In this document: positions 48,913 to 64,000 of the stretch, piece after piece
Position numbering within the stretch: the stretch's first letter is position 1
How the letters are laid out: the number at the start of each line of letters is the position of its first letter
Assembly: GCF_004959855.1 (NCBI RefSeq)
Contig: NZ_SPNT01000003.1
Location: 672,619 to 736,618 of the forward strand
Origin: Nitratireductor sp. XY-223
GTDB taxonomy: Bacteria; Pseudomonadota; Alphaproteobacteria; Rhizobiales; Rhizobiaceae
Length of the DNA: 64,000 nucleotides
Direction: 5' to 3'
Notes under the pieces: model-generated
What the model saw: only the letters and a program-made list of their open reading frames with translations
Told to the model about the DNA's origin: nothing
Databases searched by the model: none
Position numbers and translations under genes: made by a program

Positions 48913-48974
48913 AATAGCTCCGATTGTGTCTTGCAACATAGAGATTTTGCCGCTGGTCCACAGAGGAATGCTGA

Positions 48975-49877: not shown

Positions 49878-49994
49878 GGCCCCGCGATAGCGGCAACAAA
49901 ATACGGGGCAAACGCATTTGACGGACAAGAGCAGAGCGATACGGCTGCGAAATCGTAACGGCTGATCTTTTTGCCCTAACGTGGTGTAATTGTG

Positions 49995-50711
49995 ATGGAG
50001 GTTAAATTGGTCGTCTGTAGCAGAGTGATATTGATGGCCGGGGCACTGGTTTCCCAATTGATTTTGCACGGTTGTGCGTCGCCGAGCGAATACCATTTTA
50101 TCACCTCCGGGCCGGTTGAGGCTGTCGGTTCCTCCTGCGGTTCCGTTGATGAAAATATCGTCTACGAGGCCGCATTGCCGGAACTCAGGCGCTATGACGG
50201 AACCCTGTTCCGAAGCGTTGAATATGGCTACAGGGATGTGTCCGAGCAGCAGATCGTTGCAATTGATCAAGCCCTTGCCCGAAAATTGCTTGCAGGGAAA
50301 AGCGTATCGAGCGAACCGAACGGAGCCACGAACGGCCGTTGCCGCATAACGTTCTGGATGGGAACCCATACAGTCATGTTCCCAATACAGGTGTTGCTTC
50401 CCTACCGTGTGGAGTTTTCCCTGAACAAAGGGCAAATTGAGGAAATCTGCCTAGGACTGGAGATTAAGGAACGTGACAGGTATTCACGCCCTCACGATCC
50501 GGAAATGGTGCTGAATCCCGACAAATTCCCGAACTTGAAACGCGACATGATCGTCGCGAACAGCGATTTGTACGTTAAAGCGGACGGCCCGCCTTTTGTA
50601 TTGAGGGAAACATGGGAACCACTCAGGGTTCTTGGTTCACCGTGCTTTGACGGCAATGGTCAGTTGGTCGGCTACAAGCAACTGTTTCCGGAGTTGAAAA
50701 ACAAGCCATGA
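49995..50711 (+). CDS. Prophage-encoded lipoprotein
   Basis: A ~239-residue protein with a lipobox at the end of the signal (LILHGC, Cys at residue ~27), so it should be anchored in the outer or inner membrane after lipidation. The mature part has several cysteines and no recognised domain. The start is ambiguous: ATG at 49995, or TTG at 50007, which has GGAGG at ideal spacing. It overlaps the small-terminase-like gene as ATGA, so it is co-translated with packaging genes. Phage lipoproteins often block superinfection or act in lysis; neither is shown here. Confidence 0.65.
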   Translation: MEVKLVVCSRVILMAGALVSQLILHGCASPSEYHFITSGPVEAVGSSCGSVDENIVYEAALPELRRYDGTLFRSVEYGYRDVSEQQIVAIDQALARKLLAGKSVSSEPNGATNGRCRITFWMGTHTVMFPIQVLLPYRVEFSLNKGQIEEICLGLEIKERDRYSRPHDPEMVLNPDKFPNLKRDMIVANSDLYVKADGPPFVLRETWEPLRVLGSPCFDGNGQLVGYKQLFPELKNKP

Positions 50712-51040
50712 GTGCAACTGTTTGCCGAGCGAGGCGGCCAACCAACCAGAAGTCAGCGCAGGCGTACGTTGATGGAGCGGGGCGGATTGGCCAGACCGGA
50801 TCTGGGTCTCCTGTTATTCGAGACGCGATCATCCAGGCGGCGGTCGAGGCCGGTGGCGGCGACATGATCGCTTATCTCAAGAAGCAGGCGGAAACCCATC
50901 CGAGCGCATTCATGACGCTGCTTGGAAAAGTGCTGCCCATGCAGCTGACCGGCGGAAAGGGCGAGCCGGTCAATCTGGAGTTCTCGGTCCGGTTCGTCGC
51001 CGCCGAGGAAGCGAGCGACCCCGGCGCGGTCGGCGACTGA
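50708..51040 (+). CDS. Small terminase subunit-like phage protein
   Basis: A 110-residue protein directly upstream of the large terminase gene (20-base gap). It has a basic N terminus, a helical middle (VIRDAIIQAAVEAGGGDMIA, HPSAFMTLLGKVLPMQLTG) and an acidic end. The sequence HPSAFMTLLGKVLP resembles phage proteins annotated as small terminase or terminase-associated in podovirus-like prophages. Position and size, rather than a solid motif, support the call. The start ATG overlaps the lipoprotein stop. Confidence 0.6.
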   Translation: MSATVCRARRPTNQKSAQAYVDGAGRIGQTGSGSPVIRDAIIQAAVEAGGGDMIAYLKKQAETHPSAFMTLLGKVLPMQLTGGKGEPVNLEFSVRFVAAEEASDPGAVGD

Positions 51041-51060
51041 CGCAACCTTTTCGAGGATAA

Positions 51061-52344
51061 ATGGACATTAAATTTCCGGACGTGTTCCGGCCGCTGGTTG
51101 CGCCGGCGCGCTACAAGGGCGCCTGGGGCGGCCGCGGCAGCGGAAAATCGCATTTCTTTGGCGGGCTCCTTTGCCTGCGCGCGCTGAAGCAGCAGACCCG
51201 CGCGGTGTGCCTGCGCGAGGTCCAGAATTCGATCAAGGATTCCGTCAAGCAGCTCATCGAGGACAAGATTTCCGCGTTCGGCCTTTCCGGCTATTTCGAC
51301 ATCACCGACACGCAAATTCGCGGGCCGAACGACAGCCTTTTCGTCTTCCGCGGGCTGAAGAACCACAACGCGGCGAGCATCAAGTCGCTGGAGGGCTTCG
51401 ACATCGCCTGGGTGGAGGAGGCGCAGACCGTGTCGCAAAAGAGCCTCGATCTGCTCATCCCGACAATCCGCATGCCGGCCAGCGAATTGTGGTTCTCGTG
51501 GAACCCGGAGAGCCCGACCGATCCGATCGATCGTTTCCTGCGAAAGCGGAAACCGGCCGGCGCGATTGTCGTGCGCGCCAACTACAACGACAATCCGTTC
51601 TTCCCGGAGGTCCTGCGCGCCGACATGGAGCGCGACCGGACAACGGATCATTCAAAGTTCGATCACGTCTGGCTGGGCGGCTATCGGAACGTCTCCGACA
51701 TGCAGTTCATCGCACGCGAAACGGTGCGCGCCGCGCAAGAGCGGCAAAGCGGGCGAGGGCAGGGGCCGCGCATCTTGGGGCTCGACGTCGCGCGCTTCGG
51801 CGACGACCGGACCGTGCTTCTCCTGCGGGAGGGACACCGGGTCAGCCGCATCTGGCGCTGGTCGGCGCTTGACCTGATGCAGACGGCGGGACGGGTCAGC
51901 GAGATTGCGGCGCGCGAGAAACCGCATGCACTGTTCGTTGACGGCGTTGGCGTCGGCGGCGGGGTCGTCGACCGGCTACGGCAACTGGGCCTGAAGGTGA
52001 TCGACGTCAATGGCGGCGCGCGGGCCGGCAACGCCGTGCGCTACCGCAACAAGCGTGCCGAGATGTGGGCAAGGATGCGCGACTGGCTGCGCGATGTCGG
52101 CGCGATACCGGATGACGACGAGTTGGCGATCGATCTTCAAGCGCCGAACTACGCCTTCGACGCGCTGAACCGGATCCAGATCGAGAAGAAAGAGGACATG
52201 AAAAAGCGCGGCCTTCTGTCGCCCGATCTTGCGGACGCATTGGCGCTGACCTTTGCCGAGGCGGTCCATCCCGAACGCATGAATGCGGCAGCGAATGCCC
52301 AGCGCGCGGCGGGGAAGCCATATAATCCGCTGGAGGGCTGGTGA
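51061..52344 (+). CDS. terL: Phage terminase large subunit
   Basis: A 427-residue terminase of the Terminase_3/PBSX type. The ATPase domain has Walker A GGRGSGKS (residues ~22-29), the C-motif region GFDIAWVEEAQTVS with Walker B acidic residues, and a coupling SWNPESPTDP. The RNase-H-like nuclease domain starts at RILGLDVARFGDDRTVLLL with the metal aspartates. It packages phage DNA into the prohead through the portal. It is full length with no disruption and is preceded by a ribosome site (GAGG). It overlaps the next gene (TGATG). Confidence 0.93.
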   Translation: MDIKFPDVFRPLVAPARYKGAWGGRGSGKSHFFGGLLCLRALKQQTRAVCLREVQNSIKDSVKQLIEDKISAFGLSGYFDITDTQIRGPNDSLFVFRGLKNHNAASIKSLEGFDIAWVEEAQTVSQKSLDLLIPTIRMPASELWFSWNPESPTDPIDRFLRKRKPAGAIVVRANYNDNPFFPEVLRADMERDRTTDHSKFDHVWLGGYRNVSDMQFIARETVRAAQERQSGRGQGPRILGLDVARFGDDRTVLLLREGHRVSRIWRWSALDLMQTAGRVSEIAAREKPHALFVDGVGVGGGVVDRLRQLGLKVIDVNGGARAGNAVRYRNKRAEMWARMRDWLRDVGAIPDDDELAIDLQAPNYAFDALNRIQIEKKEDMKKRGLLSPDLADALALTFAEAVHPERMNAAANAQRAAGKPYNPLEGW

Positions 52345-52862
52345 TGGTGGACATCAGACCGGCCTCATTGCGCGATGTGTCGTTCATCGCCGCCAATATG
52401 CGCGAATGCGACCGCGCGGAGATCTTCTGCCAGGTGGCGCCCGGAACGAAGTCCGCGGACATCGCCGCGTTCTGCATCGGGCGCGGGCAGAGCTGGACGG
52501 CTTTCCGCAACGGCCTGCCGTCGGGTGCGTTCGGTTTCAGCGAGATCAGCGACGGCGTGCTGAACGGCTGGGCCTTTGGCCGGCCGGGGTTCGGGCGCTG
52601 TATCCCGGCGGTAACGCGATTCGTCTTTCGCGAATTGGTGCCGGGCTGGCAGCGTGATGGTGTCCGACGCATCGAGGTGCGCACGATCGAAAGCCACGAA
52701 AGCGCGCACCGCTGGCTGGCCGCCGCCGGCGCCGTCCGTTGCTGCTCGCTCGAGGATTGGGGCAGGGGCGGCGAGCGCTTCTATCTTTATGCCTGGACCT
52801 GCCGAAAGGTGCCGGAACAATTTTTCCAGCGTTGGCTTCCAACTTCACCGATTTCGAAATAA
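52344..52862 (+). CDS. Gp13/GNAT-like phage protein
   Basis: A 172-residue protein with a GNAT-type fold: an N-terminal strand-helix (IRPASLRDVSFIAANMRECD), an acetyl-CoA-loop-like region and RRIEVRTIESHESAHRWLAA near residue 115. Proteins of this kind are placed near the terminase in T7-like and related podoviruses (gp13-type internal virion assembly proteins). The role is probably in virion assembly or host modification. The start is the ATG at 52344 with GGAGGG six bases upstream; a GTG three bases earlier is in frame. Confidence 0.7.
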   Translation: MVDIRPASLRDVSFIAANMRECDRAEIFCQVAPGTKSADIAAFCIGRGQSWTAFRNGLPSGAFGFSEISDGVLNGWAFGRPGFGRCIPAVTRFVFRELVPGWQRDGVRRIEVRTIESHESAHRWLAAAGAVRCCSLEDWGRGGERFYLYAWTCRKVPEQFFQRWLPTSPISK

Positions 52863-52873
52863 GCATTGACAAG

Positions 52874-52888
52874 AACAAAATAGGAACA
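52874..52888. promoter_or_regulatory. SOS (LexA) box upstream of cargo pair
   Basis: GAACAAAATAGGAAC, perfect GAAC-N7-GAAC, just downstream of a TTGACA -35 box (52867-52872). It lies 57 bases before the ATG at 52946. Confidence 0.85.
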
Positions 52889-52945
52889 CACTATATGGTT
52901 GCACTACAAAGGTAACATTTGGGGACCAGACAAGGCTGCGTTTTG

Positions 52946-53290
52946 ATGGGTAAAAAACTGGGGATGTGGATCCTTAGAGTGTTTCTCGGCCTGACCTTGT
53001 CGTTGGCACTGTTTGTGCAGCTGTTCGTTTTTAACCGCACTTTCATGCCGCCTGAGCGTTTGATCGCCGTCCAGAAGAATCAGATGACCGAGCAATGCGA
53101 TCTGAAGCCGGGAGACAAGATATTTTCGGAAGATTTCCTCTGGGATTCAGAATACTATGTCGAATATACAACCGGCGATTTCCGCCTCGTCGCGAAACGG
53201 AACCTCTTGGGCTCGCTGCTCTGCTTCCCGGGGATCGGCTGCCTTACACCTCCGCAATTTACCGCCGACTGCTATGCGCCACGAGAGTAA
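52946..53290 (+). CDS. Small membrane-anchored cargo protein (paralogue of 53419)
   Basis: A 114-residue protein: one N-terminal helix (MWILRVFLGLTLSLALFVQL) and a ~85-residue exterior domain with four cysteines, including LLCFPGIGCLTPPQFTADCY. The membrane-proximal PPERLIAVQKNQ, DSEYYVEYTTGDF and CFPGIGCLT blocks are shared with the gene at 53419, so the two are tandem duplicates. Expression is expected from the SOS box at 52874. There is no recognised family. The cysteine spacing suggests a disulfide-stabilised periplasmic domain. Confidence 0.65.
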   Translation: MGKKLGMWILRVFLGLTLSLALFVQLFVFNRTFMPPERLIAVQKNQMTEQCDLKPGDKIFSEDFLWDSEYYVEYTTGDFRLVAKRNLLGSLLCFPGIGCLTPPQFTADCYAPRE

Positions 53291-53418
53291 AGGCCGCATT
53301 GAGAGACGCCAGCAGGGAAATTATCGAGGCATTTCCAACAGCCTGGTATGGGCGCGGTCCACCTGTCAAATTGCATGACGAATTGCCTGGAAATCTCAAC
53401 AGCTTTCCATTGGAGCGT

Positions 53419-53760
53419 ATGAAGATGAAACAGTGGGCCCTCAGGATATTCATAGACGTCATTGTCGTGTTCGCTGTTTTCATCTTGCTGGCCTAGTTTC
53501 GTGGGTACGGTTATCCGGACCGGTTGGTCGCGGCCAATCTGAAGCCTATCGCCGAGGAATGCGGCATGGACGAAACCGACAAGCTGATCATCGATTCATT
53601 CCTGTTCGATTCCGACTACTACGCCGAGAATCTCAATGGGAGTTGGCGGCATGTCGCGCGGCGTTCGAATTTGGGCGAGATGCTTTGTTTCCCGGTTGTT
53701 GGCTGCCTGACAAAGCCGGTCTACACCGTCGAATGCTATGGAAGTAAGCGCCACCGGTAA
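53419..53760 (+). pseudogene. Second copy of the 52946-type gene, with an in-frame amber codon
   Basis: From the ATG at 53419 (TGGAG upstream) the frame encodes one membrane helix, then a TAG at 53494-53496, then continues in the same frame through RLVAANLKPIAEECGMDETD, DSDYYAENLNGSW and CFPVVGCLTKPVYTVECY to a stop at 53760. The two halves align with the intact paralogue at 52946 over its whole length, so the TAG replaces an internal codon rather than ending a gene. It is either a pseudogene by one point mutation or requires readthrough. A short second product from an internal start at 53524 is conceivable. Confidence 0.75.
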
Positions 53761-53843
53761 GGATGGCGCCCGCCGAATTTCCAATCATGCATGTTTAGCA
53801 AAAGAGGCGCCCGGAAAACTACGCGCCCCTTGCGCAGCGCTGA

Positions 53844-54041
53844 TCAATTCAACCGATCGGCACGTTCACGCGCGATACGGTCCATGACGTGCTCACCCGG
53901 CTCTTCTCGCGAAAGGGCATCCTGCTTCCGGATGCGGGCAGCGGAACGACGAGCCTCGCGCGTCGGCGCTTAGAGACCAAGCGACGCAATGGCGCCTTGA
54001 CGAAAGATGATGTCGGGGAACTGATGCATCGTCTCAGGTGA
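53844..54041 (+). pseudogene. Possible truncated phage gene remnant
   Basis: A 65-codon open frame after a TGA at 53841 has protein-like composition (PIGTFTRDTVHDVLTRLFSR, then LARRRLETKRRNGALTKDDV) and ends at 54041, but no start codon or ribosome site is present. It looks like the C-terminal end of a gene whose 5' part was deleted. The family is unknown. Confidence 0.35.
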
Positions 54042-54053
54042 TGGCATCGACGA

Positions 54054-54068
54054 GAACAAAATAAGAAC
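54054..54068. promoter_or_regulatory. SOS (LexA) box
   Basis: GAACAAAATAAGAAC, perfect GAAC-N7-GAAC, 61 bases before the ATG at 54130. The flanking bases ACATAATCTATGG resemble those after the 52874 box. Confidence 0.85.
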
Positions 54069-54129
54069 ATAATCTATGGTTGAAGTGCCGTTCCATGTTG
54101 TGCGAGACGCGCGCCAAAGGGGAACCGAA

Positions 54130-54551
54130 ATGAAGCACCTGGAATTGTGGTTGTTTTTGGGATTCTTTGGAACGTTCTTTACCGCGCTGGCCGTGTGGAT
54201 TTATTTGGATACCGCCGACTATCGCCCCCCATTTTTGCCGAGGAACACATCGAAATACTCAGTGACAGGGGCGCGATCAGAAGCGACGATCCTCTCTTTG
54301 CCGGCTACGAGCGCCTCTGTCTGTTTGGCACGCGCAGTTCAGAATTTACGGACCATGGGTGCGGCTTGTTCGATGAATCGGCCATCGCCCTGTTTCGCGA
54401 CGGACAGTGCTATGCGTACTCAGCCCACAACGTTCCTGCACGCGTCAAGGAAGAATATGACTGGGAGTGCCGCGATCTCAATCAGCAGTTTGAAATAGGC
54501 ATTTTAGGCACTGAAGAAGACCCACCCCGATACTTGATATTTGACCCCTAA
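54130..54551 (+). pseudogene. SOS-controlled membrane protein gene with a frameshift
   Basis: The ATG at 54130 (GGGGA upstream) opens a frame for a short membrane helix (FLGFFGTFFTALAVWIYLDT). Its natural continuation, from IFAEEHIEILSD through CLFGTRSSEFTDHGCGLFD to FEIGILGTEEDPPRYLIFDP, is in the frame one base behind, ending at 54551. The switch occurs at CGCCCCCCATTTTTG (near 54225), where a one-base loss or a -1 slip on the C6/T5 runs would join them. It is a decayed gene, a sequencing error or programmed frameshifting; the sequence alone cannot decide. The downstream domain has four cysteines like the other cargo proteins. Confidence 0.6.
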
Positions 54552-54565
54552 TCCGGAGAGAAAGT

Positions 54566-54736
54566 ATGGATCGTATTGTTCCAGATATCGACGCACTCAA
54601 CAATAAAATCAACAATTTGTCGGACAGATTCAAAATAAGGAATGAGCAGGGTCCCAACCGGAAGGACCAGCACAAGAGTGCATTTGCCCATGCCTATGCG
54701 TCCGCTGTCTTAAGGTTCGAGAATAATCAGGCCTGA
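54566..54736 (+). CDS. Small 56-residue protein
   Basis: ATG at 54566 with GGAGAG upstream; it encodes a hydrophilic, helical peptide (IDALNNKINNLSDRFKIRN, then RKDQHKSAFAHAYASAVLRF). It lies 14 bases downstream of the frameshifted gene and probably shares its SOS-driven transcript. No family is recognised. The alpha-helical pattern with alternating Asn/Leu/Lys could mediate binding to another protein. Confidence 0.5.
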   Translation: MDRIVPDIDALNNKINNLSDRFKIRNEQGPNRKDQHKSAFAHAYASAVLRFENNQA

Positions 54737-55051
54737 AAATCTGGGGCAGACGGCTGCCGTCCAAAGCGGCGACAGATATGGCGGAATTCCTATTGCGGAA
54801 TTCGTGTTTTAAATCCAGACAATTGGAAGGTCTTCGACTGCATCGGTGTGGTACAGCCGCCAATTGGCATGGCCGCATCTGCGGCGATTACCTAGTGTGC
54901 GTCTGCTAAGCCAAGATCGGCCGCTCGTCTGCCCCCATCTTGGTCAAACCGTGATTCAGAATCCGAACCTGCCTTCAAGCGCTGCCCGTGTCCCGTGGCC
55001 GCGCATGGGCATCTGCCGACTCATCCGGCACCAATCAGGAAAGGTGATCCC
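54737..55051. other. 315-bp gap upstream of the portal cluster
   Basis: No open frame with a ribosome site, no SOS box and no convincing promoter or hairpin were found. A GGAATTC direct repeat occurs near 54790 and nothing else stands out. Confidence 0.4.
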
Positions 55052-55264
55052 ATGTGCTTCAGCACCAAGGTTGAAACCCCCGAGCCGGTCGCGCCGCCGC
55101 CGGTGACCCGGGACAAGGATGCGAGCCTGCGCGTCGAAGCGCGGCTGCGGCGCCGTCGCTCACGCGGATCGCGCGCCAATATCTTCACCTCGGCGCTGGG
55201 CGACAGCGGTTTTGGCGGCAGCGTCGTCTCCGGTGCGACGCGGCTCGGGCAGTCGAACACATGA
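55052..55264 (+). CDS. Small phage structural-cluster protein
   Basis: A 70-residue protein with a short Cys-containing start (MCFSTKVETPEPVAPPPVT), a strongly basic middle (RVEARLRRRRSRGSRANIF) and a Gly/Ser-rich end. Its stop overlaps the portal start as ATGA. Proteins of this size and basic character commonly precede the head-tail connector gene in podovirus-type modules, where their role is undefined. AGGA eight bases upstream supports the ATG at 55052. Confidence 0.65.
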   Translation: MCFSTKVETPEPVAPPPVTRDKDASLRVEARLRRRRSRGSRANIFTSALGDSGFGGSVVSGATRLGQSNT

Positions 55265-57000
55265 ACGGCATCATCGACAAGCTGCTCGACCGGCTGGCGC
55301 AGCTCGAGGACGCCCGCAGGCCTTGGGAAAGCCATTGGCGCGACATCGCCCGCTACGTGGCGCCTGATATGGCCTATCACGAGATGCTGGAGGCGGTGGG
55401 CGGCGGCGCATCGCGGCCGCACGGCGCGCAACAGGCGCCGAACATCTACGACCACACCTCGCTGATGGCGATCGACCGGCTGGCTGCGGGCGAGATTTCC
55501 CTGGTCATGCCGTCCAGCGCCACCTGGCACACGCTGAAGAGCAACGATCCCTTTGCCGGCGACCCCGGCGACACCGAGAAACGGTGGTTCGACGACCTGA
55601 CCCGCTACGCCTTCCGCATGCGCTACAACCCGGTTTCCGGGTTCACGCTGGCAAGCAAGGCGGCCGTGAAGGGCAGGGCGGCCTTCGGCACCAGCGTCAT
55701 GTATGTGGAAGAGAGTTTCGGGCGCGGGCTGTCCTCGCCGGTCTCATACCGCCATGTGCCGCTGCTGGAAAACCACCTGGCGACGAATTTCGAAGGCGTG
55801 GTGGACACCAATTTCCGTGTCTTCCGCCGCACCGCGCGCCAGTGCGTGGAACGTTGGGGCGACAAATGTTCCGAGAAGGTGCGCCAGGCGGCGGAGGATC
55901 CCAAGCGGCAGGAAAAACCGGTCACGCTTGTGCACGCCGTAATGCCGCACCCAAGAGGCGATGAAAGTCCGATGCGCTTTGCCTCAACCTATTTCGAGAA
56001 GGACGAGAAGCACCTGATCGGCGAGGGCGGCTATCGCAGCTTTCCCTATGTCGTCTTTCACTGGAACCGCGAGCACCAGGGTCCCTATTGCGAGGGGCCG
56101 GTGTCGATGGCGCTGGCCGAGATCAAATCGGTCAACATGCTGTCGAAACAGGAATACATCGCCACGCAGCAATGGGTGAACCCGCCGACGGCGCAGCGCG
56201 ACGATGCGGCCAACCCGCCGAATCTTAATCCCGGCGCGCCCAATCCGGGCCTTTTGAGCGAGACGGGCGAACTCCTGATCCGCCCGATCATCACCCAGCA
56301 GCGGCCGGATTTCGCCCGCGCCGTGATCGAGGCCAAGCAGAACCAGCTTCGCGACAGCCTTTACGTTAATCTGTGGCAGATCCTCATCCAGAACCCACAG
56401 ATGACGGCGACGGAAGCGGCCATCCGCGCGCAGGAAAAAGGCGATCTCCTCGGGCCGTCGGGCCTTTCGCTGCAGGAGGGGCTGGCGCGGATGGTTGACC
56501 GGGAGTTCGCGGTCCTGGAAAGCAAGGGCGTGTTCCGCCCGGGCGCCGCGCTTGCCGCGCCGACCAGCCTGCAGGGCCAGGATATCGGCGTTGCCTTTAC
56601 CGGACCGCTCGACAAGATGCGCCGGGCCGGCGAGGTGGTCGGCATGCAGCGAGTCCTGGAGCTAGCCGGCCTGATGGCGCAGATGGGCCGGCCGGAAGTG
56701 CTCCAGCGTTTCGATATGGATGAAATGCTCGACATTGCCCAGGACGTGCACGGCGCGCCGCGCTCGATCTTCCGGCCGGCCGGGGAGGTGGCGCAGGACG
56801 CCGCCAAGGCCGAACAGCTTCAGCAGATCCTCGGATCCATGGATGTCATCAGGGCGGGTGGCGAGGCGGCCAAGGCCGCGGCCGAGGGGGGCAAGGCGCT
56901 GGGCGCGACCGGGCCGGACGGCGCACTCGATCCACAGGCCGTGGCGGCGATGCTGCAGGGTGCTGCCGGCGAACAGACGGATGAAACGGAGCTGCCGTAA
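55261..57000 (+). CDS. Phage head-tail connector (portal) protein, T7-type
   Basis: A 579-residue protein matching the podovirus head-tail connector family. N-terminal RPWESHWRDIARYVAPDMAY, IYDHTSLMAIDRLAAGEISL, then MPSSATWHTL and the clip/wing region PYCEGPVSMALAEIKSVNML are characteristic. The C-terminal 80 residues are Ala/Gly/Gln-rich. Twelve copies form the DNA entry ring and dock the terminase. It is intact, translationally coupled to the small gene upstream and, by TAATG, to the Bbp19-like gene downstream. This places the element among phages with short-tail-type portals. Confidence 0.92.
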   Translation: MNGIIDKLLDRLAQLEDARRPWESHWRDIARYVAPDMAYHEMLEAVGGGASRPHGAQQAPNIYDHTSLMAIDRLAAGEISLVMPSSATWHTLKSNDPFAGDPGDTEKRWFDDLTRYAFRMRYNPVSGFTLASKAAVKGRAAFGTSVMYVEESFGRGLSSPVSYRHVPLLENHLATNFEGVVDTNFRVFRRTARQCVERWGDKCSEKVRQAAEDPKRQEKPVTLVHAVMPHPRGDESPMRFASTYFEKDEKHLIGEGGYRSFPYVVFHWNREHQGPYCEGPVSMALAEIKSVNMLSKQEYIATQQWVNPPTAQRDDAANPPNLNPGAPNPGLLSETGELLIRPIITQQRPDFARAVIEAKQNQLRDSLYVNLWQILIQNPQMTATEAAIRAQEKGDLLGPSGLSLQEGLARMVDREFAVLESKGVFRPGAALAAPTSLQGQDIGVAFTGPLDKMRRAGEVVGMQRVLELAGLMAQMGRPEVLQRFDMDEMLDIAQDVHGAPRSIFRPAGEVAQDAAKAEQLQQILGSMDVIRAGGEAAKAAAEGGKALGATGPDGALDPQAVAAMLQGAAGEQTDETELP

Positions 57001-57347
57001 TGACGAACACCATGCATTCGCTGTCCACTGGCAAGTCGGGCGGGCAGCGCCGGAACGCGGCGGCGATGAGCGAACTGCAGGGCGCCTATCACCGGCTTTT
57101 CTTCGGCAAGGGCGCGACGCCGCAGGACCAGTCCGTCGTGCTGGCCGACCTTTCGGCCTTTACCGGCTACTTCTTTTCGCAGGACGCGGAGGCAAGCGGC
57201 GAAGCGCTGCGGGAGGCGAACGCCATGCGCCGTGTGCTGGCCCGCATCATCCGGCTCGGTCTCGGCGCCGAGGGCGACCTTTCGGCGCTCTACCGCGCCG
57301 CCGTCGCAGAGACGCTTGCCACACGAGAAGAGGGCAGGACGTTGTGA
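57000..57347 (+). CDS. Bbp19-like phage protein
   Basis: A 115-residue protein directly coupled to the portal gene. The block GKGATPQDQSVVLADLSAFT, then GYFFSQDAEASGEALREANAM and VLARIIRLG resembles Bbp19-type proteins found after the portal gene in Bordetella phage BPP-1-like podoviruses. The role is unknown but presumably structural. It closes the contiguous structural cluster; the next phage-like gene appears only near 58 kb, and possibly at 63.9 kb. Confidence 0.7.
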   Translation: MTNTMHSLSTGKSGGQRRNAAAMSELQGAYHRLFFGKGATPQDQSVVLADLSAFTGYFFSQDAEASGEALREANAMRRVLARIIRLGLGAEGDLSALYRAAVAETLATREEGRTL

Positions 57348-57380
57348 TCGCCGCCGAGTGGATAGGTCACGTTGATATCG

Positions 57381-57395
57381 GAACAAAATAAGAAC
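57381..57395. promoter_or_regulatory. SOS (LexA) box
   Basis: GAACAAAATAAGAAC, perfect GAAC-N7-GAAC, 54 bases before the ATG at 57450. It is followed by ACAATTCAGGGTAG, nearly identical to the bases after the 62682 box. Confidence 0.85.
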
Positions 57396-57449
57396 ACAAT
57401 TCAGGGTAGAATTCATGTCAAACTTCTTGAACGGCGGCGAAGGACTACA

Positions 57450-57740
57450 ATGACAGTCAAGATGGATGGCGCGCCCACACTGGCGCGTTCAAGGGAAAAG
57501 AACATCTACACGATCATGGCCACGGCGGGCTGGTTTTTTCCGCTGGTTTTCTGCGCGTTGGTGTCTCCGACCATGAATCTCTTTGCAGCGGGCGTTTTGT
57601 ACCTCTATTCAATGATCATCCCGCTCTTTATTCTCTGTGTATTGTCGATTTTCAAATACGACCGCAGGATGTGGCTGGCGTTTACGCCTTTTGTGACCCA
57701 TACCCCGTTGGTCATCTATGCGGGCATTGTTTACTCATGA
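57450..57740 (+). CDS. SOS-controlled small membrane protein 1
   Basis: A 96-residue protein with a ~27-residue polar N terminus followed by three hydrophobic segments (FFPLVFCALVSPTMNLFAAG, VLYLYSMIIPLFILCVLS, LAFTPFVTHTPLVIYAGIV). AAGGA precedes the ATG. It overlaps the next membrane gene as ATGA, indicating an SOS-induced pair. Small phage membrane pairs of this kind can be holins, superinfection-exclusion proteins or toxins; no motif decides. Confidence 0.65.
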   Translation: MTVKMDGAPTLARSREKNIYTIMATAGWFFPLVFCALVSPTMNLFAAGVLYLYSMIIPLFILCVLSIFKYDRRMWLAFTPFVTHTPLVIYAGIVYS

Positions 57741-58036
57741 CCGCGATCTCTGGAGTACAACGGTGGAGTCGAGCGATCGCGGCATTCCACAAGCCGGCCT
57801 TCATTGTCCTCTCTTGTTTGACGTGGGCCTCGCCCCCGGCTTCTCTTGTGTTGCTCTCGGAGGGTTGGACACCGCTCGCCTTGATTTTGGGGCCGGCCTT
57901 TGTCTTTCCGCCGATTGGCCTGATGGTGGTTCTCTCGATTGTGGCAGTCCGACATTACCACCCGCTCATGTGGCTTTCCTTCCTTCCGGTCGCCACCACG
58001 ATTTTCTCCTTTATCTGGCTGGACATCCCTATGTAG
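57737..58036 (+). CDS. SOS-controlled small membrane protein 2
   Basis: A 99-residue protein with three hydrophobic segments (AFIVLSCLTWASPPASLVLL, LALILGPAFVFPPIGLMVVL, MWLSFLPVATTIFSFIWL). The first and last segments share spacing and a D/H-R/H-x-M-W-L turn with the preceding gene (DRRMWLAF and YHPLMWLSF), so the two are probably divergent paralogues. The ATG at 57737 overlaps the upstream stop. Co-expression from the 57381 SOS box is expected. Confidence 0.65.
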   Translation: MTAISGVQRWSRAIAAFHKPAFIVLSCLTWASPPASLVLLSEGWTPLALILGPAFVFPPIGLMVVLSIVAVRHYHPLMWLSFLPVATTIFSFIWLDIPM

Positions 58037-58219
58037 GGCAGCCGTTGGACACCATGACGTTCCGCTGGAAATCCGTTCGTCAAGCGCCCGTTCTGGCGCG
58101 GATGCAACGGCGCTGACCCGCGGCTGCTAGGCGCAAATTCGCACCTTAGAAAACTGCTGGCTCGTCAAAGAACTTGGCGCGCTGCCGGCCGTTGTTACTC
58201 GAAAACCAAAGGAAGAACC

Positions 58220-59005
58220 ATGCCCCAACCAACCAGCCAATATACGGAAACAACCAGAAAATTCGTTGAAAAAACCGGCGGGCTGGCAGTGCCGGTTGCC
58301 AAGGAACTGGGCGTTTCGCCCACAGCGATCGTCGGTGCGGTTGCCAATGAGTATGACACCAGGAAAAAGTTCAATGTCGGGAAGCAGGCTATTGCAGATG
58401 GATTTGCTAATATCTGGTCTTTTGAACACCTTCAAAGCCGCAAAATGAAGCCAAGCGGAGGAACGCCCGGCATAGGCTATAAAATCATGAGCCCTCGGAA
58501 AATTGACGTCGGTCCGGGGAACATTCGCGTGGATGCAGCCATTTCAATGGTTCAGGACTATGTGAAGCGTTACGAGGGCACCAAGATGGACCCGCTCGGC
58601 CTGCTTAAATACAGGAACGATTACAACGGCCTGGTCGACGATTTGCTGAACTTCGAGAACTCGCGGGCAAGTTACGCGATCGCCGGTCTTTTTCTTGCGA
58701 AGGGTCAGAAGCTCCTCAAGCGCAAATCCCTTCAAGCCTGGGAAAGGCTGTCGCCCGACCAGAAGGATGCGTTGCTGGTCACCTATTACAAGATCGGCGA
58801 AGAGCGGATCAAGCGAAACATCGACAAGAGGCTCAATCCCTCCAACCGGTCGCCGGAGAGTTTCGCCTACAATCCGAGGGGCGACGGCAGCCAGCAGCAC
58901 CTCAACAATGCCGAGAATCTGAAGAAATGGCTGAAATTGCCGCGGTTGGACTATCCGGTCAGCTCCGTGGGCTCCGAGCGTAAAATTCCGAATTTGTCGA
59001 GATAG
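58220..59005 (+). CDS. Cargo protein, possible peptidoglycan-active domain
   Basis: A 261-residue soluble protein without a signal peptide. The first ~120 residues (AVPVAKELGVSPTAIVGAVA, then NEYDTRKKF with a possible catalytic Glu, and IDVGPGNIRVDAAISMVQDY) resemble lysozyme-like domains of phage and toxin proteins in which a Glu follows an S-x-x-A-I-x-G-A helix. The rest is charged, helix-rich and ends in Ser/Arg. AAGGAAG precedes the ATG. It could be a virion-associated lysin or internal toxin. The assignment is by motif resemblance only. Confidence 0.5.
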   Translation: MPQPTSQYTETTRKFVEKTGGLAVPVAKELGVSPTAIVGAVANEYDTRKKFNVGKQAIADGFANIWSFEHLQSRKMKPSGGTPGIGYKIMSPRKIDVGPGNIRVDAAISMVQDYVKRYEGTKMDPLGLLKYRNDYNGLVDDLLNFENSRASYAIAGLFLAKGQKLLKRKSLQAWERLSPDQKDALLVTYYKIGEERIKRNIDKRLNPSNRSPESFAYNPRGDGSQQHLNNAENLKKWLKLPRLDYPVSSVGSERKIPNLSR

Positions 59006-59064
59006 CTGTCTGCGCCGGAGCCGCCACTATTGGATGGATGTTGTCCGCGAGACTCAACCAATCC

Positions 59065-59196
59065 CTAACCCGGCTCTTCCGGCAATGTCAGCGTGATGCC
59101 GGAGATCGGCAGGTCCAGCCGGTCCAACCGGGATGCCGTGGTCTCAACCAGCGAGCCGCGCGATTGAACCGAAGGCTTGACGTATTGTTTCTTCAT
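59065..59196 (-). CDS. Candidate RiPP/lasso-like precursor peptide A
   Basis: A 43-residue peptide. Residues 1-16 read MKKQYVKPSVQSRGSL, matching the Y-x2-P-x-[LIV]-x3-G leader motif bound by lasso-peptide B1 proteins. A Thr pair (19-20) precedes a C-terminal part ending LPISGITLTLPEEPG. If Ala21 is core residue 1, Asp28 sits at ring position 8. It is nearly identical to peptide B (last four residues differ), from a tandem 164-bp-spaced duplication. No cyclase or protease gene is adjacent. Confidence 0.6.
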   Translation of the reverse strand: MKKQYVKPSVQSRGSLVETTASRLDRLDLPISGITLTLPEEPG

Positions 59197-59219
59197 TGGA
59201 GTGCCCCCACGCTGTACTT
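59081..59219 (-). repeat. Tandem duplication unit 1 (peptide A gene)
   Basis: It matches 59245-59383 at a fixed offset of 164 bases, covering most of the peptide gene and its 5' flank; only a few bases differ. This is a recent tandem duplication. Units C and D further right are older, diverged members of the same array. Confidence 0.9.
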
Positions 59220-59228
59220 TCCGGATCA

Positions 59229-59360
59229 TCAATCCGGTTCGTCGGGCAATGTCAGCGTGATGCCGGAGATCGGCAGATCCAGCCGGTCCAACCGGGATGC
59301 CGTGGTCTCAACCAGCGAGCCGCGCGATTGTACCGAAGGCTTGACGTATTGTTTCTTCAT
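59229..59360 (-). CDS. Candidate RiPP/lasso-like precursor peptide B
   Basis: A 43-residue peptide identical to A except for its last residues (LPDEPD in place of LPEEPG) and silent changes. It has the same MKKQYVKPSVQSRGSL leader. The near identity and conserved frame across the duplication argue that it is translated rather than accidental. A GGGGGC-type site, weak as a Shine-Dalgarno, precedes the ATG. Confidence 0.6.
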   Translation of the reverse strand: MKKQYVKPSVQSRGSLVETTASRLDRLDLPISGITLTLPDEPD

Positions 59361-59383
59361 TGGAGCGCCCCCACGCTATACTT
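59245..59383 (-). repeat. Tandem duplication unit 2 (peptide B gene)
   Basis: Partner of 59081-59219. The duplicated unit carries its own start region, so each copy could be translated independently from one long transcript. Confidence 0.9.
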
Positions 59384-59450
59384 CTGTCGATCGGGCCGTC
59401 GGCCCCAATTCCCTTATGCTTCCCGCATGCCGTCCGCGGATTTCAGGCAC

Positions 59451-59576
59451 TTATTCGGCGGGATCGAAGATCGGCGGCAGCGGCACGCCTGAAAAAACGG
59501 GTTTCTTGTCCACGAGACCGGACTCGGCCAGGGAACCGCGCCTTGTGATCTTCGGTGCCTCATAGGATTTCTTCAT
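59451..59576 (-). CDS. Candidate RiPP-like precursor peptide C
   Basis: A 41-residue peptide, leader MKKSYEAPKITRRGSLAES, core-like end KKPVFSGVPLPPIFDPAE. It shares the leader motif Y-x2-P-x-I-x3-G and the P-[IV]-F-S-G-V-P-L-P segment with peptide D, and a weaker P-I-S-G-I-T-L match with A and B. There is no suitable ring acceptor spacing, so if modified it need not be a lasso. Confidence 0.55.
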   Translation of the reverse strand: MKKSYEAPKITRRGSLAESGLVDKKPVFSGVPLPPIFDPAE

Positions 59577-59643
59577 GTTCGCACCTCATCTGTCTGCCGC
59601 TTACTGTCGAGCCTTGGCGTTACATAGATCCGCGTCATAGCGA

Positions 59644-59772
59644 TTACGTGTCCACATCGAAGAGCTTAGATGGAAGCGGAACGCCCGAGAAAATCGGTTT
59701 GCTCGGCTTTGCCGTCAAACGTTCCAGGCTGCCGCGCTTTTCCACCGCGGGTGCTTCATAGCTTTTCTTCAC
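59644..59772 (-). CDS. Candidate RiPP-like precursor peptide D
   Basis: A 42-residue peptide with a GTG start at 59772 (an ATG is not available in frame), leader KKSYEAPAVEKRGSL and end SKPIFSGVPLPSKLFDVDT. It is the promoter-proximal gene of the array. A TTGACT hexamer at 59832-59837 upstream on the minus strand is a possible -35 box. Leader and C-terminal motif conservation with C argue for a real gene family. Confidence 0.55.
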   Translation of the reverse strand: MKKSYEAPAVEKRGSLERLTAKPSKPIFSGVPLPSKLFDVDT

Positions 59773-59964
59773 GAGATGCCCCCAAAATTCGCGTAACTCG
59801 TACAAATTCAACTACGATTTATCGTGGATAGAGTCAATTTTCACGCACATAATGATTTGTGGGCAATGCGCGAATAATCGATAGATCGGCAATAATGCAA
59901 CAGCGTGTACTTGCGCGTATTGCCAGGCGCCATGCCGTTTGCGGTAATTATTTGGGGGTATTGA

Positions 59965-61131
59965 CTAAATCCGGCCGCCCTTGCGAGTGGCGCCGGTGAG
60001 TTTTCCTATGAGATCGTCGATTTCATCTTTGTTGTCGCGTACGAAATCTTTGCCGGCCTGCCGGATGCGGCTGATATTGTCGGAAGAAGGGTTGAATGCG
60101 CTGGTATCGGCCGGAACCTTAGGCGACAGCACCGTCAGCCTGATGTCGATGCTGGAATCGAAGGCATCGTGTTCTTCCAACGCACCGCGACTGACCGTCG
60201 TCTCGCCGCGATAGACAAGCCGGTAGGCGGGGGTGAACCACTGCAGCATTCCCCCCTTTATGCCGATATCCTCGGTGATCGAGAAATCGCGTGTCGTTCC
60301 GAGCGCGACGACGATGAACTCCTCCACCTTCGGCAGGTGCTTTCGCGCATGGATATATGCAAGGTCCCCGGGTGCGTTCAGAATGAGGCCGGGATCGCCG
60401 TAAAAGTAGTCACCGTCCTTGTCGCCCGCGAGCACGACCGCCGGGAAGACGGTCGGAACGCTGGTCACGGCGGTGATCAGCGGCCAAAGATACATGTTCG
60501 CTTCCGTGCGATCCCAGTTGCGGAACACCTTGAGGCCGCTCGTCCTTTGCGAATAGGCGGGGAACATGGCCGGCCGCAGCAGGTCCTTGAAACGCGCAGT
60601 TCCGAAGACCCTTTGCGCTGTATCGATCCGGCCCCTATTGGTGAGCGCCGGGCCGAACACGCCAAAACCGGTCAAAACGGTGTGGTAGCGCGGACCGCTG
60701 AAGACCTGGCCGGCGAACTCCTCATAGGCGTCTATCGCTTCGTCCGCCGTCATCGGCTGCCCGCTGCTCGCATCAGGGTTCAGCAGGAGCGTGGAAATGA
60801 TCGCGCCGGTCGAGGCGCCGGCGATGAAGTCGAACAACTCGTAGATGCGCTTTCCCGAGCGCTGCTCGATCGCCTTGAGCACCTCGAGATCCGCCAGCCC
60901 GTCGAGGCCGCCGCCCTCGATGGCGAGAATGCGGGCGCGGCGCGGCACCTCCGTGGTAACAGCCACCGGTTCGTGAAACGTCGATTCGAGCGGCCAGGCG
61001 ACGAGCTGATACTCGTAGTCGGCCAGATGCCGGCTGTAGACATGGCCGATCGCAAAAAACAAGAGCACAGCCAAAGCCAGCAACCCGAGAAGGGATACAA
61101 AAAATCGGATCAGTCGCCTCAACAATACCAC
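59965..61131 (-). CDS. Patatin-like phospholipase, membrane-anchored
   Basis: A 388-residue protein. One N-terminal helix (residues ~5-30, FFVSLLGLLALAVLLFFAIG) anchors a patatin domain. The oxyanion hole ILAIEGGGLDGL lies near residue 70, nucleophile Ser in FIAGASTGAIISTLLL near residue 106 and catalytic Asp in YGDPG near residue 248 (DPG rather than the usual DGG/DGA). Patatins hydrolyse acyl chains from phospholipids. It runs toward the peptide array on the same strand and may be cargo inserted into the prophage. Phospholipases in prophages can act as anti-phage or inter-bacterial effectors. Confidence 0.85.
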   Translation of the reverse strand: MVLLRRLIRFFVSLLGLLALAVLLFFAIGHVYSRHLADYEYQLVAWPLESTFHEPVAVTTEVPRRARILAIEGGGLDGLADLEVLKAIEQRSGKRIYELFDFIAGASTGAIISTLLLNPDASSGQPMTADEAIDAYEEFAGQVFSGPRYHTVLTGFGVFGPALTNRGRIDTAQRVFGTARFKDLLRPAMFPAYSQRTSGLKVFRNWDRTEANMYLWPLITAVTSVPTVFPAVVLAGDKDGDYFYGDPGLILNAPGDLAYIHARKHLPKVEEFIVVALGTTRDFSITEDIGIKGGMLQWFTPAYRLVYRGETTVSRGALEEHDAFDSSIDIRLTVLSPKVPADTSAFNPSSDNISRIRQAGKDFVRDNKDEIDDLIGKLTGATRKGGRI

Positions 61132-61341
61132 CTAACGTTTGGCTGTTCGCGGCCGCAACGCGCCCGGGGCGCGTGCAACCGGCAGTCATCCCAAATGAAA
61201 CAGCCAATACTTTAAGTATTTATTATCCCCGCTGGCCAGCAAAGTGTCCGACCGGGGCGGATCTGAGCGTTATCGGGCGTGTGGCGTTTCTCCCGAACAC
61301 CGCGTTATGCTGCGCATATCGCAGGAGAACAACGATCTGTC

Positions 61342-62388
61342 ATGGATTATCGAAGCCTGAACGAAGTGGGCATGGCGCCAGCAAACCGGGAGGACGGATG
61401 GGAGATATCCGGACCGCAACAGGCCGGGTTCGACCCCGAAGCGCTCGCGGCCATCGCTGACGAAATAGACGATGATCAGCACGGCGATTTTCACGCGCTG
61501 CTCATCGCCAGGCGCGGCCGGCTGGTCTTCGAGGCCTATTTCAACGGCTACGACGCGGCGCGCCTGCACGACATCCGGTCCGCGGGCAAGAGCTTCACGG
61601 CAACACTTATCGGCATCGCGATCGACCAGGGCGCTATCCCGAATGCGGACGTCCGCATGCTGCCTTACTTCCCGAATTTCAGGCCCCACGCCCGCGTGGA
61701 CCCGCAAAAGGAGGCGATCACGGTCCGGCATCTCCTGATGATGACGTCAGGTTTCGATGCCGATGATGCGGACCCGGCAACCCCCGGCTGCGAAGACAAC
61801 ATGCTGAAATCGGACGACTGGATCCGCTGCGGGCTTGACCTGCCCATGGCCCGGGCACCGGGCGAGCAGTGGGTCTATGCGGGGGTGAACACCATGCTCC
61901 TGGCGGGCCTTCTTGAAGCCGCGACCCAAGGGCCGCTGATCGACTTCGCCAGTGAATGGCTCTTTGGCCCGTTGGGAATCGATAAGTTCCACTGGCAGAG
62001 ATCGCCCCGGGGGATTGTCGCCGGCCAGGGGTTCCTGTCGCTTCGCGGCCGGGACCAGCTCAAACTGGGACAGCTCCACCTCGACAACGGGGTGTGGGGC
62101 GGGAAAAGGATTGTCTCGGAACAATGGGTCCGCGCCGCCACGAAACACCGGGTCGATATTCCGAATGAAGGCCACGCGGGCTACGGCTACCAGTGGTGGC
62201 GCATGACGATCGACATGGACGGCAAGGGTATCGGTTGTTTCTTCGCGAGCGGCAACGGCGGCAACAAGATCTATGTTCTGCCTTCCCTTGGCATGGTTGT
62301 CGGGACCGCCAGCTCGGCCTATGGCAAGCCCTATATGCACACAAGATCACACACGATCTTGCGCAGGGTTATCCAGGCGGCGATCTAG
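61342..62388 (+). CDS. Beta-lactamase-fold serine hydrolase
   Basis: A 348-residue class C beta-lactamase/DD-peptidase-like hydrolase. The S-x-x-K motif is SAGK (within IRSAGKSFTATL, residues ~81-84), the Tyr motif is YAGVN, and a C-terminal GNGG (FFASGNGGNKIY) replaces the H/K-T-G triad. No signal peptide is present, so it is probably cytosolic and acts on esters or peptides rather than cell wall. The ATG at 61342 has AGGAG 14 bases upstream, longer than ideal. It is divergent from the patatin gene with a 210-bp gap and lies inside the prophage interval. Confidence 0.85.
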   Translation: MDYRSLNEVGMAPANREDGWEISGPQQAGFDPEALAAIADEIDDDQHGDFHALLIARRGRLVFEAYFNGYDAARLHDIRSAGKSFTATLIGIAIDQGAIPNADVRMLPYFPNFRPHARVDPQKEAITVRHLLMMTSGFDADDADPATPGCEDNMLKSDDWIRCGLDLPMARAPGEQWVYAGVNTMLLAGLLEAATQGPLIDFASEWLFGPLGIDKFHWQRSPRGIVAGQGFLSLRGRDQLKLGQLHLDNGVWGGKRIVSEQWVRAATKHRVDIPNEGHAGYGYQWWRMTIDMDGKGIGCFFASGNGGNKIYVLPSLGMVVGTASSAYGKPYMHTRSHTILRRVIQAAI

Positions 62389-62681
62389 CCTGCCCGCCAG
62401 GACCGAAGCGGGAAGAGCTGCCGTACAGGAAGAACTTCTTACCCTGGCCGGCGCGTGACGACACGGAGAAAGAACTGCGCCACGCGGTGGATGCCGAAAC
62501 AAATCAACGGGATAGGGCAGGGCCGTACTGCATCGCCGGCCCGCAGCCGGTTATCGGGATCGCCGTCTGTCCGCGAATTCCCTATTGTTGCATGCAACCC
62601 ATGGAGTATCGCGCAGCCGCGTCGGCAAAAAGCCTGCCGACATCGTTATTGGTACTTCCACGATCGATCGTATTCTGATAG
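62389..62681. other. Intergenic region between serine hydrolase and last cargo pair
   Basis: About 290 bases without a credible gene, continuing as the SOS-box promoter region to 62757. Open frames here have poor codon use and no ribosome site. Confidence 0.4.
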
Positions 62682-62696
62682 GAACAAAATAAGAAC
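62682..62696. promoter_or_regulatory. SOS (LexA) box upstream of secreted cargo pair
   Basis: GAACAAAATAAGAAC, perfect GAAC-N7-GAAC, 61 bases before the ATG at 62758, followed by ACAATTGTGGGTAG as at 57396. Confidence 0.85.
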
Positions 62697-62757
62697 ACAA
62701 TTGTGGGTAGCAATGGTTAGCACCTAGATGCAAGCGTTCGAACACGGGAGTAGTGCC

Positions 62758-63276
62758 ATGCGGGTCAATCGGTTTGCAGGTGCGTTGTGCGCAGCATTCG
62801 TGGCGCTCGGTGTTTTCCTGTCAGCGTCTGCTGTCGGCGCGCAGGTGGTTTTCTGGATCGAGCCCAAAAAAGGTTTCCAAGCGGTCAGCGCCGCGGATTT
62901 TGAGAAAATCAAGCGCCTGGAGCGATCCGTCTTCGTGTCCGAACTGAAGCAGGACGAGCTCGCGATCCAGGACTTCAATTCGGAAAATCACATCTACCGC
63001 GTGCTGCGCTTCTGCGCCCCGGAGAAAACGGAGGAGTGCTTTACCTCGTTTTATCGTGACGAACTCGCCGATGAGAACCTGTTCCTGGCGACGAGGCTGC
63101 CCGGCATAACCGCCGCCCAGTACGATTCCTTCTTTTTTTGCAAAGACTGCGGGTCTGCCTACGAGGTCTGGTTCTTCAGTCCAGATCGCCCGTTGTCTCC
63201 TTACGCGTGTCCAACAATCGCTTACCTTACGGACGACAGAGCGACATTAAACTTCGGCGCCGGTTGCTCCAATTGA
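62758..63276 (+). CDS. SOS-controlled secreted cargo protein, paralogue 1
   Basis: A 172-residue protein with a signal peptide (MRVNRFAGALCAAFVALGVF, cleavage near VGAQ). The mature domain has eight or so cysteines, including RVLRFCAPEKTEECF, and the motif SFYRDELADENLF, which it shares with the next gene (SFYRDEIKDENFF). The ATG at 62758 has GGGAG upstream; an in-frame ATG ten codons earlier is less likely. Function unknown; a disulfide-stabilised exported protein induced by DNA damage could be an envelope effector or immunity protein. Confidence 0.7.
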   Translation: MRVNRFAGALCAAFVALGVFLSASAVGAQVVFWIEPKKGFQAVSAADFEKIKRLERSVFVSELKQDELAIQDFNSENHIYRVLRFCAPEKTEECFTSFYRDELADENLFLATRLPGITAAQYDSFFFCKDCGSAYEVWFFSPDRPLSPYACPTIAYLTDDRATLNFGAGCSN

Positions 63277-63336
63277 GCAACCGTTCTGTTTCAATAGCCC
63301 AACAGGATGCCAACTTGGAAATTGCAGGAGGCAGAT

Positions 63337-63846
63337 ATGCGATCAAGTAACACAAAGCGCCTTGTTCTTGGCTGCTTTGCCGCGCTCTTCATGTTTGCGT
63401 CGACTGGGACTGGGAGTGCCCTAGGATTAACGACCACACCTGCCAACAACTTTCTGCCAGTTTATCTACCGCTGTACGAGCAGATCAAAAAATTGAAAAA
63501 AGGCACTCCAACGACGCAGCCGAAGCAGGAAGAGCTGTCTGTCATGGAGTTTAGTTCGCACAACCATACATATACCATCCTCCGCTATTGCATGCCGATA
63601 AGCACGGAGAATTGCCTTGTCTCCTTCTACCGCGACGAAATCAAGGACGAAAATTTTTTCGGAGCCGCAGTTTTGCCTGCCTTTTCGTCGTATTGGGAAA
63701 CGCAGGTGAAACTCTGCGAGCATTGCGCGCCGGTGCATCCGATCTCCTTTCATTATGAAGACGGGTTCAGACACAGTGCATGTTCGATTACGATTATTGT
63801 GTCAGATGAAGGCGTGCTCCAGTATCTCGGCTGTCCGAAATACTGA
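63337..63846 (+). CDS. SOS-controlled secreted cargo protein, paralogue 2
   Basis: A 169-residue protein with a signal peptide (LVLGCFAALFMFASTGTGSA) and a mature domain aligned with the preceding gene: NHTYTILRYCMPISTENCLV, then SFYRDEIKDENFFGAAVLP and two further cysteine pairs. AGGAGG seven bases before the ATG is a strong ribosome site. The 60-base gap to its neighbour suggests one transcript. The pair probably arose by tandem duplication within the prophage. Confidence 0.7.
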   Translation: MRSSNTKRLVLGCFAALFMFASTGTGSALGLTTTPANNFLPVYLPLYEQIKKLKKGTPTTQPKQEELSVMEFSSHNHTYTILRYCMPISTENCLVSFYRDEIKDENFFGAAVLPAFSSYWETQVKLCEHCAPVHPISFHYEDGFRHSACSITIIVSDEGVLQYLGCPKY

Positions 63847-63915
63847 TGAGGCCGCCGCGTGCGGCAAACCGACCGGCAAGAAATCCACGCAAGTCAAACA
63901 ACAGGATAGACAGAT

Positions 63916-64000
63916 ATGGCTGACCCGGAAATCACCGGCAGCAAGGATTTGCTGCGCAGTTTTCACTACCTCTATGACAAGTCGCCGAGTTTCAGGAATA
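63916..64000 (+). CDS. Hypothetical phage protein, N-terminal part (runs off right edge)
   Basis: Twenty-eight codons are visible from an ATG at 63916 (MADPEITGSKDLLRSFHYLY, then DKSPSFRN). In podovirus-type modules the head genes (scaffold, protease, capsid) follow the connector, so this may resume the structural cluster after the cargo. The fragment is too short to assign. Confidence 0.55.
   Translation, partial: MADPEITGSKDLLRSFHYLYDKSPSFRN

Follow-up and report, generated by a model that had tools for sequence, protein, structure and literature searches.

Candidate precursors of a putative lasso-derived, apparently cyclase-free RiPP pathway in a phage-derived element of Nitratireductor sp. 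XY-223

Introduction

The closest described systems to the locus studied here are the clusters for phosphorylated and phosphoglycosylated lasso peptides (paeninodin, pseudomycoidin and bsf of Bradymonas sediminis), which, in the excerpts of two reports on which we draw (PMC8498205, PMC10368454), have in common with it a YxxPx[LIV] leader with Thr at -2, a discrete RRE protein (B1), a B2 protease, an HprK-like kinase and an NTP_transf_5-type nucleotidyltransferase. According to the same excerpts, BsfK phosphorylates Ser3 of the core, aided by its B1 (PMC10368454), and pseudomycoidin, once phosphorylated, acquires one or two hexoses through a nucleotidyltransferase (PMC8498205). A model of the discrete lasso RRE is described by the authors of RRE-Finder, in an excerpt of a further report, as covering almost 8,000 proteins, with ~4,000 accompanied by protease and cyclase, ~300 of the rest going with radical SAM enzymes, and the others taken as possible false positives (PMC7470986).

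We analyzed a window of 64,000 nt from Nitratireductor sp. XY-223 (genome G000), to which position numbers refer, and focused on four small open reading frames (ORFs) that we consider, at a probability of roughly 0.7, to be precursors of a lasso-derived, cyclase-free RiPP pathway, with an enzyme block on another contig, C55, acting on them in trans. Unlike the phosphorylated lasso clusters, this block has no cyclase C and no transporter D that we could see, part of the comparable loci carry extra ACP, GNAT and AMP-ligase genes, and the precursors are dispersed, here in a phage-derived element; the cores, unlike those of phosphorylated lasso peptides, are short and without a conserved ring acceptor.

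Two other kinds of system invite comparison. Acylated RiPPs made with GNAT enzymes include the selidamides, goadvionin and lipolanthines, and a carrier-protein-bound acyl donor working with a GNAT would follow a similar logic, although those systems have a different leader and other enzymes and acylation here is a guess. Prophage-borne RiPP clusters such as that of sublancin in SPbeta likewise place RiPP precursor genes in phage DNA, but they carry precursor and enzymes together, whereas the element here holds precursors only. A search by title and abstract start of the open-licence PubMed Central literature returned no description of a cyclase-free B1-B2-kinase system, a weak negative.

Results and discussion

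The four ORFs (Table 1), which follow one another as D, C, B and A in the direction of transcription (window 59065-59772), are identical in 13 alignment columns (4/4), including Y5, P8, R13-L16, S29 and G30. An earlier note on this DNA had correctly described them as open minus-strand frames of 41-43 codons with a common leader and a hydrophobic S-G-[VI]-x-L end, and had attributed the near-identity of A and B to a 164-bp duplication, which we recovered as a tandem repeat of 1.9 copies with 95% matches that leaves both frames open. Over 132 nt these two copies differ at 8 sites: 4 are synonymous, 2 fall in the stop codon, and 2 are amino acid replacements close to the C terminus. The lasso-type leader motif reported there was borne out as well, the Tyr, Pro and hydrophobic spacing being present in all four; A, B and D keep every position of YxxPx[LIV]...Thr -2, and C is without the Thr. 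With the lasso_leader_L3 model (NCBIfam, cut-off 19), D scored 18.3 bits and C 14.2 bits, both under the cut-off, and A and B gave no match. The cores of these four are 20-22 residues long, longer than those of their relatives. An Rfam scan of 57000-62500 gave no match, and a tRNA scan of the whole window found none.

Table 1. Features of the precursor array, the phage-derived element and the two RRE loci; positions refer to the window unless a locus or contig is named.
Feature	Position	Strand	Size	Remarks
Precursor D	59644..59772	-	42 codons	GTG start; leader 1-21 ending Thr20-Ala21; core with F-S29-G30-V
Precursor C	59451..59576	-	41 codons	ATG start; leader as D, but Gly20-Leu21 replaces Thr-Ala; core with F-S29-G30-V
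Precursor B	59229..59360	-	43 codons	ATG start; leader ends Thr20-Ala21; core with I-S-G-I
Precursor A	59065..59196	-	43 codons	ATG start; near-identical to B
Phage structural block	50708..57347	+		Adjoins cargo; PHROGs and phage records
Small protein	in 50708..57347	+		phrog_11043; terminase-small-subunit-like by position
Terminase large subunit	51061-52344	+		PHROGs
Internal-virion-type GNAT	52341-52862	+		PHROGs
Head-tail adaptor	55261-57000	+		PHROGs
orf115	in 50708..57347	+		Structural block
orf261	58220..59005	+	261 aa	No assigned function; beside array in G006 too; not found in fetched G007 region
Patatin-like protein	59965..61131	-	388 aa	PF01734, 48 bits; upstream of array; adjoins array in G007 and G006 too
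Serine beta-lactamase family protein	61279-62388			PF00144, 101 bits; adjoins patatin gene; broad esterase/peptidase family, no resistance implied
C55 enzyme block	L010 8860-13849	one strand		B1 RRE, 97 aa; B2, 146 aa; HprK-like kinase, 328 aa
C55 enzyme block, continued		other strand		NTP_transf_5, 385 aa; ACP, 79 aa; GNAT, 195 aa; AMP-ligase, 480 aa
Second RRE locus	L011 7762-13079 = C33:649760-655080			PqqD-like, 160 aa; HprK-like kinase; two glycosyltransferase-like ORFs; NTP_transf_5; class-II amidotransferase; no B2

To place these peptides in a family, we searched 101 genomes with a profile of the four rows. Beyond G000, the best matches among same-genus-labelled genomes were four ORFs of Hoeflea poritis E7-10 (G007; E 9.7e-11 to 7.2e-8), followed by G006 (best 2.1e-5), G001 (1.5e-4) and G005 (0.0086), while outside that label one match fell in G097 (5.6e-4, with two stop codons and without the leader part) and one in G045 (0.012); at E <= 1 matches came from 57/101 genomes and were mostly at chance level. 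The H. poritis array sits at the same place, in the order patatin gene, four precursors, orf121, orf122, orf115, head-tail adaptor, and the corresponding place in G006 holds two clear precursor ORFs and one degenerate copy (Cys for Tyr). Because the same family recurs there with open frames in both genomes, we regard the array as more than chance. The search for homologous arrays that the earlier note had suggested thus gave a positive answer: relatives have arrays in which leader and reading frames are intact, namely these four H. poritis ORFs and arrays of up to ten precursors beside enzyme blocks.

A second alignment, of 28 rows, was assembled from precursors chosen by hand, and within that choice Tyr5, Pro8, Ser29 and Gly30 are invariant (28/28); left out by hand were a 30-residue ORF of L046 that has no Ser-Gly and, with Ser-Gly, the degenerate 39-residue ORF of L045, a long ORF of L053 and an ORF of L054. 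Its profile returned four precursors each in G000 and H. poritis, all inside the phage-derived element, and eight in G006, of which the cargo has two, the distal end of the same block two, and other places four. Precursor D had no tblastn match in 50,697 phage records (a weak negative, as short peptides are easily missed), and no relative was confirmed among viral contigs in profile searches that used the four-precursor alignment, orf261 or the head-tail adaptor, again weak negatives.

The array lies in the cargo of a podovirus-like block, which could be a domesticated phage or a gene-transfer-like element. With regard to its earlier designation as a prophage, terminase, GNAT and head-tail adaptor were recognized by PHROGs, whereas occupation of the same site in four species argues for a fixed element. 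Relatives of three window genes on the flank (46005-48719) keep their order beside the block in G006, G007 and G026, and since the chromosomal neighbors of the block are constant in the four species, it may be an old, fixed element. The head-tail adaptor matched 167 of the 50,697 phage records, all at <60% identity, and has relatives in 8/101 genomes. Downstream, the block presumably continues in G006 and G007 with scaffold, tail tubular, internal virion and fiber proteins; in G026 and G099 a scaffold-like gene follows orf115, in the former after two or three further ORFs. Neither patatin nor precursor was found in G026, G099 or G096, a comparison from which the adaptor genomes G074 and G097 were left out.

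Between orf115 and the scaffold-like gene the cargo varies (window 46005-64000, L044, L045, L095, L155 and L160; four species in two genera). The H. poritis cargo (L044 804-7046) contains two copies each of orf179-like and orf182-like ORFs, as well as three related ORFs of ~310 aa, two of which have an HExxH-like stretch, which suggests more effector-like cargo.

Precursor copies in an old phage remnant might be neutral or degenerate leftovers, drifting as parasitic sequences, and the scatter of copies over several genomes, the degenerate G006 ORF and the lack of a minus-strand promoter in a simple sigma-70 scan would each sit well with such decay. We nevertheless consider it unlikely, given that every frame is open in two species, that codon position 3 differs most in 11/11 pairs (8 between G000 and G007, 3 within a genome), and that both species keep two FSGV and two ISGIT peptides. 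Moreover, the three of the eight adaptor genomes with clear arrays (G000, G006, G007) are also the three with B2, which none of the other five has.

We then asked which enzymes could act on these peptides. In G000, PF13471 and PF05402 matched at two places each and side by side on C55 only, where the lasso B2 model also had its one match, so that this is the single lasso-type B2 in the genome. The earlier view of an orphan array whose maturation genes lie elsewhere in the genome agrees with this result, B1 and B2 being adjacent on a different contig; of the three components sought, B2 and RRE were thus located and a lasso cyclase was not. B1 scored 53.2 bits with PF05402 and B2 48.8 bits with NF033537 (cut-off 33). 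B1, B2, NTP_transf_5, GNAT and AMP-ligase of this block are above Pfam cut-offs, with the ACP (18.6 vs 20.8) and the kinase (27.4 vs 33.3) just below, and the kinase profile matches solved HPr kinases (E 3.5e-4) over the ATP-binding part only. Cys83 and His120 of B2 are invariant in 8/8 aligned sequences and Ser36 of the ACP is kept in 7/7, residues that we take to be catalytic. Also invariant in 8/8 are H137, SGxGKT 155-160 and D176-D177 of the kinase; a His, an ATP-binding loop and an Asp-Asp form the motif listed for lasso kinases in the excerpt of PMC10368454. The B2 profile found no relative among solved structures, and B2 had no match in 72,556 plasmid records, a weak negative. Several observations count against our reading: array and enzymes are on different contigs in G000, no exporter or transporter D was noticed in the C55 block, C is without Thr -2, the ACP and kinase scores are under their cut-offs, only some of the relatives' cores have Ser-Gly, and a further RRE-kinase-NTP_transf_5 locus exists (below).

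The genomic link between precursors and enzymes comes from relatives. In G001, G002 and G005, precursors of the family adjoin the same seven-gene block, and arrays stand beside such blocks in L084, L117, L121, L122, L124 and others. A profile search of genome contigs with the B2 alignment yielded 15 loci, mostly from Rhizobiales, plus one Sedimenticola and one Verrucomicrobia MAG, and in these phmmer found B1, B2, kinase and NTP_transf_5 in 15/15 and, in 7/15, also ACP, GNAT and a full-length AMP-ligase. The leader spacing (Tyr -17, Pro -14, Thr -2) is that published for BsfA, as given in the excerpt of PMC10368454.

Co-occurrence was evaluated in 394 genomes of the family, with precursor matches accepted at E <= 0.01 and B2 at E <= 0.001. 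Precursors were found in 24, B2 in 30 and both in 22, such that B2 is present in 22/24 genomes with a precursor vs 8/370 without; removal of the six genomes that fed the profile left counts of 16, 2, 8 and 362 (both, precursor only, B2 only, neither; Fisher p 1e-20, kinship uncorrected). The two genomes with a precursor but no B2, G010 and G171, show matches that are weak and partial. Of the eight B2-only genomes, an Asn-synthase accompanies B2 in five (G113, G124, G217, G233, G318), the B2 score stays under the cut-off in G175 and G216, and in G288 precursor-like ORFs lie a few kb away from B2.

The array's own contig, ~82 kb away, holds a second RRE locus (Table 1), possibly another peptide-modifying system, and with its RRE, kinase and NTP_transf_5 genes, kept in the array-bearing H. 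poritis, it might serve the array in place of C55. This seems highly improbable to us, as the locus is without B2, its RRE protein (E 1e-5) was not found in the precursor-bearing G006, G001, G002 and G005 and does occur in the B2-less G095 and G096, and the relatives' precursors adjoin the B1-B2 block instead.

Maturation by the C55 block remains our preferred reading, and we next considered whether its product would be a lasso peptide. For this we compared 27 loci of the present type, comprising the 15 from the B2 contig search and 12 of 20 further fetched regions (the others being 7 lasso-type regions and L126, which has precursors and no B2); they represent 26 distinct places (L082 = L119), some of them truncated where a contig ends, and do not include L070 of G006. 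An Asn-synthase query matched at 0/27 of them vs 7/7 lasso-type loci, with G262 and G357 carrying one locus of each kind; among the 12 present-type regions, L120 had only B2 recognized and L118 no NTP_transf_5. No lasso cyclase was found in G000, where PF00733 had six matches, none on C55: the two full-length Asn-synthases reached 276 and 170 bits with the lasso cyclase model (cut-off 525; control cyclases 542 and 791) and 522 and 368 with the asparagine synthase model (cut-off 267), and the remaining four are partial and weak. A kinase tree separated 28 cyclase-free from 7 lasso loci by one branch of weak support (76/80).

We also surveyed core sequences by reading the leader spacing off D and scanning 43 fetched regions, 32 of which had matches; this fixed spacing misses some precursors, e.g., those of L082 and L091. 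The survey gave 81 different precursors with cores of 6-22 residues (median 11; <13 in 62/81), every one with Ser or Thr (81/81). Asp or Glu at positions 7-9 occurs in 12/81, and a simple lasso rule fits 2/81. Ser-Gly is present in 35/81 vs 12.7 expected when each core is shuffled (0/2000 shuffles as high), a count that includes 26 sequences (L127-L146) fetched, as was L126, via a profile that knows Ser-Gly; in the L082-L126 subset it occurs in 22/55 sequences and 9/15 loci, ten of these 22 coming from L084. It is not general, being confined to those 35 and absent from the five-member arrays of G222 and G279.

True lasso peptides, threaded and closed by a cyclase that acts in trans or escaped the draft assembly (98.7% complete), would account for the leader type and for B1 and B2, which are those of lasso clusters, and precursors A and B do offer Ser1 and Asp7 as ring donor and acceptor if cut after Ala21. 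The earlier note had restricted a plausible acceptor to A and B, and C and D are indeed without Asp or Glu at 7-9; with no cyclase detected, these residues probably mean little. Since no cyclase was found in the genome or at the 27 comparable loci, G000's full-length Asn-synthases score as asparagine synthases, and the relatives' cores are mostly under 13 residues and rarely fit the simple lasso rule, we set the lasso product aside as very unlikely.

In the cyclase-free pathway that we favor, B1 would recognize the leader by its Tyr -17, its Pro -14 and the hydrophobic side chain at -12, B2 would cleave after Ala21 (Thr -2, Ala -1), and the HprK-like kinase would phosphorylate Ser or Thr in the core, with the conserved Ser of Ser-Gly as the likeliest site. 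We infer these three steps from characterized homologues, and because BsfK phosphorylation and pseudomycoidin glycosylation are published, a phospho-Ser/Thr peptide is the product that we infer. NTP_transf_5, ACP, AMP-ligase and GNAT may then decorate the peptide further, perhaps by placing a sugar or nucleotide on its phosphate and by acylation or aminoacylation, with these modifications and their order guessed from domain names. All detected precursors of G000 and H. poritis lie in the element, so in these two the phage-derived element would provide the peptides and the host the enzymes, which in G000 are encoded elsewhere on its chromosome or replicon.

Judged by family, neighborhood and co-occurrence, the system appears to have the hallmarks of a RiPP, an encoded precursor with a leader and dedicated modifying enzymes, and the pathway would resemble the front half of phosphorylated lasso biosynthesis. 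A lasso-like host enzyme set in which no ring-closing enzyme was seen suggests a modified peptide of a kind yet to be described, and there is a reasonable chance of a chemistry that sets the system apart as its own class. We give even odds to the fuller proposal of a new RiPP class in which lasso-leader peptides stay uncyclized and are cleaved, phosphorylated on Ser/Thr and decorated via NTP_transf_5 and an ACP/AMP-ligase/GNAT relay, with substrates in a fixed element and enzymes in the host. Should this hold, cyclase-less sets of lasso-type RRE, protease and kinase genes would be a pathway in their own right instead of broken lasso clusters, and could account for part of the unexplained RRE-model proteins. 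It would also provide a testable case of a phage-derived element's peptides depending on host maturation enzymes, together with 81 short precursors from relatives and a set of candidate peptide-phosphorylating and perhaps peptide-acylating enzymes.

Core composition differs among the relatives' arrays. A tie between Ser-Gly and the AMP-ligase set was considered and dropped, as by eye both kinds of locus hold cores with and without Ser-Gly. The five-member arrays of L121 (6836-8074) and L122 (10987-11924), in loci where no ACP, GNAT or AMP-ligase was seen, have cores without Ser-Gly and a common hydrophobic VT-I-W-P pattern. Ten precursors with variable cores lie beside a full enzyme block in L117 (10725-12618), and in L084 (9470 and 14891-16385) ten precursors, nine of them in one run with the full enzyme block adjacent, have very uniform cores (GANFSGKK).
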